From the IMG/VR virus record IMGVR_UViG_3300045257_000045, positions 1-64,000 of that record: a stretch of 64,000 nucleotides of DNA; one strand, given 5' to 3'. This DNA is from a virus. Positions 1-34,744 of this stretch are shown piece by piece. Below the pieces are notes generated by a model, which made no database searches, was not told where the DNA came from, and saw nothing but the letters and a program-made list of their open reading frames with translations. Within the stretch, counting starts at the first letter, position 1, and each line of letters starts with the position of its first letter. The position numbers were made by a program, and so were the translations under genes.

Positions 1-119
1 GGTGTGCATGTTATACTTGATTCAGTTGCAAGCGAAGCGCGAACCGACAGACGTTAGTCGGTTGCGTAGCGTGACAGACGGATTAGGTGTGCATGTTATA
101 CTTGATTCAGTTGCAAGCG
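1..119 (+). repeat. 34-bp direct repeat, two copies (1-34 and 86-119)
   Basis: The two 34-base copies are identical and their starts are 85 bases apart. Each contains an extended -10-like element, TGTTATACT (TG at 9-10 and 94-95, TATACT at 12-17 and 97-102). A 6-bp hairpin (43-48 with 57-62) lies between them. Because copy one touches the window edge, more copies may exist upstream. The repeats sit directly before the long noncoding region, so they are probably tandem promoters for it; that is inference. Confidence 0.8.
71..102 (+). promoter_or_regulatory. Candidate extended -10 promoter before noncoding RNA region
   Basis: TGTTATACT (94-102) matches an extended -10. A GTGACA at 71-76 could be the -35, but the 20-bp spacer is long. 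GTGTGC at 87-92 recalls the motif next to the -10 in the other promoters of this phage. Transcription would start near 108 and run into the hairpin-rich segment. Confidence 0.45.
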
Positions 120-1150
120 GGAACGATTAGACGATGTAGACTATCTTTTAGTGATGAAAGATAGCCTATAACGTTTTGAATCGCAAAACGGATCTTGACA
201 AAGTAGCGCGTGGCGCAAGCCACCTTAACACATAGTGCCAGTGCGGAATCGGCCAACTATGGTAGTTACTGATAGGGATAGCGGATATCCCACTAGTACT
301 CCAATCGAATGGTAGCGAACTGTCGCCTCTTCGGTGAGGGAGTGTAGAACATCGAAACCTAGCAAGTATCCAGCGTCACCTTAGACACTGGTAGGCTTAC
401 AGGAATCGGTGTACAGCCGCAACAAACCGAGCGCAACTGTGCGGGCCTGGGATTCTCCCTAACGAACCAGGGACTAAAAACCCACCTCCCATCGCTAGTC
501 GCTTGGTTAAACGTGATAAGACTGAGCGCAACTCTGCGCTCTGCAATGAACGGCCTGAGCGTACTCCTCTGTATAAAGGCGGAGTATTCGTCAAGGGCGT
601 GGTCCGTATCATCACCGAAACAATCCCCCTTCGCGAGACAATCCGTCGAGGTATCAGCTTTGACGGGGCGGCGTGTCGGAGGTGCGAGTTAGTGGTGGTA
701 TGAAATCCGTGTGTTAACGGAGGACTGATTCCATGTATCAGCTTGGCTGACACCCTGCTTGGGTGAACCTGTGGAATCTTATCGCGCCATCGTCTAGGAC
801 TAGACGGCAGAATCGGCCATTCTGAGCACAAAAGGCACAACACTGAACATCGCTTGAACGGAATCCCTGCGCTGATAACACAGGGATTCTCTTCCCCATC
901 AATCGAATCGGTGTGCGAAACTGCGAATCGCGCAGGGTCAAGGACGTTGTAATCCTTGGTAGATAGACGCTGAAACCTAACGGCACAAACGGAGCTAGGC
1001 TTTGTCCTACGCCCAATCTCCTATATGGAGAATCGCCTTATAAGGTGCGGAACATCGTGAAATCCTACCTGAACACCTCAACGGTACACCCTGCGCGACA
1101 TAGCATAGCAATCCTCTGACAATCCCATAAACACATCGCCGTTCAACGGT
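108..1150 (+). ncRNA. Candidate giant structured noncoding RNA (~1 kb)
   Basis: No open frame here has a ribosome site or protein-like composition, in a genome otherwise packed with genes. Instead the strand is dense with perfect hairpins: 141-148/157-164, 172-178/184-190, 210-214/219-223 closed by a GCAA (GNRA) loop, 275-280/286-291, 326-329/336-339, 524-530/535-541, 738-742/746-750, 751-755/761-765, 791-796/801-806, 861-869/881-889, 939-944/953-958 and 1017-1021/1027-1031. Size, GNRA loop and phage setting resemble the large ornate phage RNAs (GOLLD, ROOL class), but I cannot assign a family. Strand is inferred from the promoter-like repeats and the downstream genes. The 5' and 3' ends are approximate. 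Confidence 0.6.
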
Positions 1151-16089: not shown

Positions 16090-16164
16090 GCCCCGGTCGT
16101 CTAGCGGCTAGGACAGCGGATTCCAGACCCGCTAACGTCGGTTCGAGTCCGACCTGGGGTGCCA
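16090..16164 (+). tRNA. tRNA with CCA anticodon (tRNA-Trp by codon)
   Basis: The 75-base sequence folds as a full cloverleaf: acceptor 16090-16096 with 16154-16160 (two G-U pairs), a D arm with GTCT/GGAC, anticodon loop TTCCAGA at 16121-16127, T arm GTCGG/CCGAC with TTCGAGT, discriminator G and encoded CCA (16162-16164). The anticodon CCA reads UGG. The anticodon stem has one A-C mismatch at its base (16120/16128), and the D-arm and framework look like Gln/Glu-type tRNAs, so the charged amino acid is uncertain. G73 fits Trp as well. Confidence 0.9.
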
Positions 16165-34507: not shown

Positions 34508-34744
34508 ATGCCTAAAACACTCCACCCTAAAGTACGCACCGAGCTTCTGGAGAAGGGGCTCGTGATGCTGGAAACGTTCTCGTACTGCCGAGAGCAGTAC
34601 CACCGCGCCGACATAGGGCTGTCTGTAGAACAGAACTTGGTCCGAGAGATGCTCAACGACATCGCCCTGGCTACAGCCTTGGAAGAGCTGGACGAGCAGC
34701 TTAAACAAAAGCAGATAGAAGCTGCTAAGGAGGACACAGCATGA
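34508..34744 (+). CDS. Helical hypothetical protein (78 aa)
   Basis: Starts four bases after the previous stop. Charged helices throughout (LVREMLNDIALATALEELDE). ATGA overlap with the next gene, preceded by AAGGAGG. Confidence 0.7.
   Translation: MPKTLHPKVRTELLEKGLVMLETFSYCREQYHRADIGLSVEQNLVREMLNDIALATALEELDEQLKQKQIEAAKEDTA

Follow-up and report, generated by a model that had tools for sequence, protein, structure and literature searches.

To our knowledge, only a few giant RNAs have been found in phages, and no role has been assigned even to the best studied of these, GOLLD and ROOL. The OLE RNA of extremophilic or anaerobic Gram-positive bacteria is a large, structured and operon-encoded RNA of about 600 nt. 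GOLLD is a large multidomain RNA of phages and prophages, many members of which exceed 800 nt, and its function is unknown (PMC12286853). ROOL, an ornate large RNA also encoded by phages and prophages, has about 660 nt in the member whose structure was solved, assembles without protein and likewise is of unknown function (PMC12286853). Here, we analyzed the first kilobase of the virus record IMGVR_UViG_3300045257_000045; the window, that is the whole stretch of DNA considered, comprises bases 1–64000 of this 68,091-base linear contig. The block at its left end most likely encodes a giant RNA that is new and an orphan: its kind is known, but it belongs to no known family.

As proposed here, the window RNA resembles GOLLD in being large, multidomain and phage-encoded, but has no covariance-model match to it at E-values up to 5. 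A conserved 3′ region, rising expression during phage lysis and a multimeric RNA cage are further marks of GOLLD. The window RNA is the same kind of object as ROOL, a large phage RNA, but it has no match by cmscan, is longer and heads an early operon instead of lying near a tRNA island. OLE is also large and structured and is itself encoded in an operon; it is, however, cellular and not phage-borne, and the window RNA did not match it by cmscan. At the gathering score, cmscan against Rfam detected no family in the block, including tRNAs, permuted tmRNA and Twister-P5, which occupy several non-coding gaps of related phages. With permissive filters, the region 1–1300 yielded three chance matches only at E-values up to 5 (among them a microRNA hairpin, E 0.013, and a group II intron fragment, E 3.8), and neither GOLLD nor ROOL was among them. 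The initial annotation had not placed the block in any family either.

The absence of a credible gene, claimed from the sequence for about a kilobase at the outset, was confirmed for positions 1–1172. None of the tested open reading frames (ORFs) had a Pfam or PHROG match at E-values up to 1. The longest ORF on the + strand (503–703) has 66 codons, a TTG start and no visible Shine-Dalgarno sequence; some real small genes have dicodon scores no better than its 12.2, which is a reservation on the non-coding call. On the − strand there is an ORF of 148 amino acids, and as a protein or pattern query against IMG/VR the antisense ORF found no relative. The block reaches position 1172, where the Shine-Dalgarno sequence AAAGGAGA (1173–1180, + strand, read from the sequence) of a GTG-start gene at 1189–1407 follows.

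Within these limits, the sequence is structured beyond chance. Over positions 100–1099, the + strand folds with a z-score of −5.2 and none of 20 shuffles was as stable, compared to a z-score of +0.8 for a coding control (1411–2360). In 34 phage records of this lineage there are 56 non-coding gaps that measure 1 kb or more; ranked by mean local z-score on the better strand, the block comes second among them, and the sole gap above it contains tRNAs. We also counted perfect Watson-Crick stems with loops of 3–9 nt in the region 100–1175 and in 200 dinucleotide shuffles of it. There are 16 hairpins with stems of at least 5 bp, versus 5.9 in the shuffles (standard deviation 2.4, maximum 15) and a mean of 7.3 (maximum 14) elsewhere in the genome, and seven with stems of at least 6 bp, versus 1.4. 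With a minimum of 4 bp, the 29 hairpins found are not unusual compared to 23.6, hence the significance resides in the stems of at least 5 bp. The initial annotation had counted at least twelve perfect hairpins of 4 to 9 bp; an excess over the shuffles is seen for the longer stems, but is not clear when 4-bp stems are included. The word GAATCG occurs seven times on the + strand versus 0.44 expected and never as CGATTC, a strand bias that suits RNA better than DNA sites.

The proposed giant structured RNA spans about 1,065 nt (108–1172), probably on the + strand, as suggested by the adjoining operon and the Shine-Dalgarno sequence. Five sub-domains, given here for this strand, are each significant on their own, with z-scores from −3.4 to −4.6. 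These are a domain closed by the helix ACAUCGA/UCGGUGU (345–416; z −4.5), a domain closed by a 9-bp helix of 425–433 with 500–508 (420–512; z −3.7), a multibranched central domain closed by pairing of 512–519 with 779–786 (508–790; z −4.6), a domain with a 9-bp hairpin of 861–869 and 881–889 (836–918; z −3.4), and a multi-hairpin domain whose perfect 11-bp closing helix (928–938/1088–1098) spans 149 nt (922–1102; z −3.8). Upstream of them, predicted 5′ hairpins (131–190) are formed by CUAUCUUUUA/UGAAAGAUAG (141–164; probability 0.99) and CGUUUUG-AAUCG-CAAAACG (172–190). The GNRA (GCAA) hairpin noted in the initial annotation was recovered as GUGGC-GCAA-GCCAC at 210–223 with a pairing probability of 1.00. 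A 3′-terminal hairpin, CACAUC/GAUGUG (1132–1158; probability 0.95), lies just 5′ of the ribosome-binding site. Short internal repeats, 87–92% identical, were observed at 426–443/521–538, 646–660/730–744 and 243–255/807–819, as if the RNA had grown through duplication of small modules.

Two identical 34-nt elements on the + strand lie ahead of the structured part (1–34 and 86–119), as had been noticed from the sequence, and these exact copies are spaced by 85 bp. Each carries an extended −10 motif, TGTTATACT, at 9–17 and 94–102, respectively, and on the + strand of the 68-kb contig the extended −10 word TGnTATACT occurs only within these two 34-mers. They may be promoters, and transcription from the second copy would start near 108–110. 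A simple sigma-70 scan reported no −35/−10 pair at the 34-mers, and their core had no match when used as a search pattern. Because the contig begins at the first base of the repeated element and its far end (68,091) interrupts a gene, position 1 is probably an assembly break and not a genome end, and further repeat copies may lie upstream; the contig has no terminal repeat.

The source is a soil phage distantly related to phages of Acidobacteria. Among GenBank phages, its primase/helicase is nearest to those of the Acidobacteriota phages Tunturi_4 (PP885687) and Tunturi_3, with 37–38% identity, and Tunturi_4 has homologs of many window genes in a largely kept order. Alignment-based searches further identified a related phage lineage in IMG/VR with 46–48% protein identity for the nearest members; single-sequence protein searches for close relatives were unproductive. 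Relatives of the early genes at 1–14 kb were found in 0 of 14 genomes checked.

Comparable blocks are present in three of these phages, Tunturi_4, G011 (IMG/VR 3300048854_000056) and G002. Their large gaps lie at 64453–66824 (unannotated in GenBank), 69147–71922 and 88906–90507, respectively, and in each the downstream part is structured (z −2.8, −4.9 and −2.6), resembles an RNA of this kind and stops directly ahead of a small early gene. The gaps of Tunturi_4 and G011 are 2.4–2.8 kb long, non-coding and CCTAG-rich, with a structured second half. Structured blocks of about a kilobase were delineated at 64601–65620 (− strand) in Tunturi_4 and at 70990–71900 (+ strand) in G011. The proteins following these two blocks are 50% identical, structure-aware alignment of the blocks gave a z-score of 5.1 with a shared conserved core, and in their 3′ double hairpin 20 of 20 pairs are kept in both, six of them via double compensatory changes. 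The two are orthologous loci; coming from two sequences only, this evidence is good but not conclusive. For Tunturi_4 and G002, the structure-aware alignment gave a z-score of 3.2. Used as a search pattern, the Tunturi_4/G011 motif recovered G011 itself only.

The window likewise has a kilobase structured non-coding block (1–1189) directly before a small early gene, and it shares position, size, style and the word AACGG with the blocks of Tunturi_4, G011 and G002. AACGG is the most enriched 5-mer across the four blocks pooled (23 copies versus 6.7), but this evidence is weak because the window RNA alone supplies 8 of the 23 and such words would also arise from A-rich linkers that precede GC stems. 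The window block also differs from those of Tunturi_4 and G011 in its downstream gene and in the lack of detectable sequence or structural homology, as judged by nhmmer, blastn, structure-profile alignment and a model (R2). No homolog was identified by BLAST, nhmmer and pattern scans over GenBank phages, plasmids and about 90 related records, including a BLAST search of the block against GenBank phages and plasmids. When 94 related records were searched by DNA, a single 25-nt match (E 3e-4) was obtained; it lies within long reading frames and was dismissed as chance. Two single-sequence covariance models (922–1102 and 345–512) matched only themselves in about 3 Mb of relatives, and unfiltered covariance searches of the Tunturi_4 and G002 blocks gave weak single-helix matches only. 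A search of bacterial genomes returned one contig in a Bacteroidetes metagenome-assembled genome and one remote match, neither useful for the RNA.

We favor a reading in which the 34-mers would act as tandem early promoters and positions 108–1172 would form the first kilobase (~1.07 kb) of the early transcript, on the + strand. The RNA would fold during synthesis into at least five autonomous domains and would most likely work in trans, whether set free from the transcript or just abundant, as a scaffold similar to GOLLD or ROOL and not solely as a control leader. Transcription, promoter identity, strand, processing and trans action are what we infer here. That the block yields some kind of functional structured RNA appears quite probable; for a structured RNA acting in trans, we estimate a probability of about 0.5. 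Action in trans is favored because large size and many autonomous domains are features of GOLLD and ROOL. Several observations weigh against this reading. The − strand folds equally well (z −5.3), so that folding cannot tell which strand is used, and mirrored-structure energies gave no decision on the strand. Because no homolog was found, the window RNA lacks covariation support, and structure-aware alignments with the Tunturi_4, G011 and G002 blocks did not rise above the controls (z −0.6 to −1.0). Moreover, GOLLD and ROOL sit by tRNAs, whereas no tRNA adjoins the window block; the nearest is a single tRNA-Trp at 16090, 15 kb away, with the sequence upstream of position 1 unassembled.

A serious rival is that the same structured RNA acts in cis, as a leader controlling the early operon through translation of the gene at 1189, message stability or antitermination. 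We regard this as possible, on a lower footing than action in trans. The block abuts the Shine-Dalgarno sequence with no terminator pattern between it and this gene, and the related blocks of Tunturi_4, G011 and G002 likewise finish just before a gene. Furthermore, CUUUGACG (658–665) is exactly complementary (8 of 8) to CGUCAAAG (1169–1176), which overlaps the Shine-Dalgarno sequence, and the two could form a switch. However, about 0.2 chance occurrences of such an 8-nt complementarity are expected by our own estimate, positions 658–665 are predicted to pair locally with 645–652, and a leader of this size would be a long one.

The equal folding of both strands would also fit a DNA element, such as a replication origin, packaging site or regulatory region in which the inverted repeats would function at the DNA level, and the CCTAG-rich stretches in the large gaps of relatives point in the same direction. 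We consider this unlikely, given that the structure is modular and multibranched and not iteron-like, that GAATCG is strand-biased, that the cumulative GC-skew extremes miss the corresponding gaps in Tunturi_4 and Tunturi_3, and that the Tunturi_4/G011 block ends with a hairpin carrying compensatory changes. Still less probable, to the point of being nearly dismissed, is that the block codes for protein in a stretch that escaped detection or has decayed. The ORFs of 148 (−) and 66 (+) amino acids and the dicodon score of 503–703 speak for it; against it stand the 66-amino-acid maximum on the + strand, the absence of Pfam or PHROG matches, of a visible ribosome-binding site and of any relative by pattern search, and a folding z-score far from that of coding sequence.

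The suggestion of a giant phage RNA made in the initial annotation is partly supported: the support concerns the non-coding nature of the block, structure beyond chance, independent domains, leader position and the occurrence of such blocks in related phages, but does not extend to transcription, the promoter role of the 34-mers or membership in a class. Its further proposal of a possible new class is compatible with the missing Rfam match, yet a single orphan sequence makes the block a candidate only. More tentatively, the window RNA might be the first observed representative of a class of giant phage RNAs, new to science, that are made at the start of the early transcript, in a lineage that repeatedly carries such fast-evolving RNAs there with only the position and the AACGG-rich multidomain style persisting, and RNA-only particles like those of GOLLD and ROOL might form.

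Downstream of the block, the first early gene (1189–1407, + strand, 72 amino acids, GTG start) is a paralog of 1411–1659, and a second, weaker pair of adjacent paralogous small early genes follows (1667–2038/2043–2456); 1667–2038 has a weak L7/L12 C-terminal-like stretch. The paralogous first genes had no match as a family query.

Other RNAs were observed in the lineage. Four phages have permuted tmRNA genes, some in or near tRNA clusters (L003:43532-43941, L006:39172-39396, L225:10935-11132, L210:2362-2602), unlike the window contig, which has none. Between small early genes and on the coding strand, Tunturi_4 has four (L004:10349-15149) and G036, another phage of the lineage, five Twister-P5 ribozymes (L197:9138-11405), which represent repeated self-cleaving sites within an early operon. 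The large gaps of Tunturi_3 and G029 have about 100 nt at 76% identity in common (L006:30903-30996, L210:9196-9289), part of which is also found in G022 (L205:10780-10833; both further phages of the lineage); this stretch had no Rfam match and is possibly another conserved RNA. Dispersed palindromes TGCA-N-ACTGTGCA in L003 and L004 (Tunturi_4 record positions 34559, 46620, 51114, 54067 and 79136) look like operator sites, and similar words also flank the RNA blocks of Tunturi_4 and G002.

If the favored reading is true, this further giant RNA, unrelated to the others and placed at the head of an early operon, would suggest that kilobase RNAs arose on several occasions in phages. Its early place would also limit the roles to be considered, such as host takeover, operon control or early scaffolding. 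The lineage-wide claim of kilobase structured RNAs at the early operon is more testable, because Tunturi_4 has been isolated and its host is in culture (PMC11924767). Its block, of the same kind and backed by an ortholog, would allow direct work on expression, deletion and structure.
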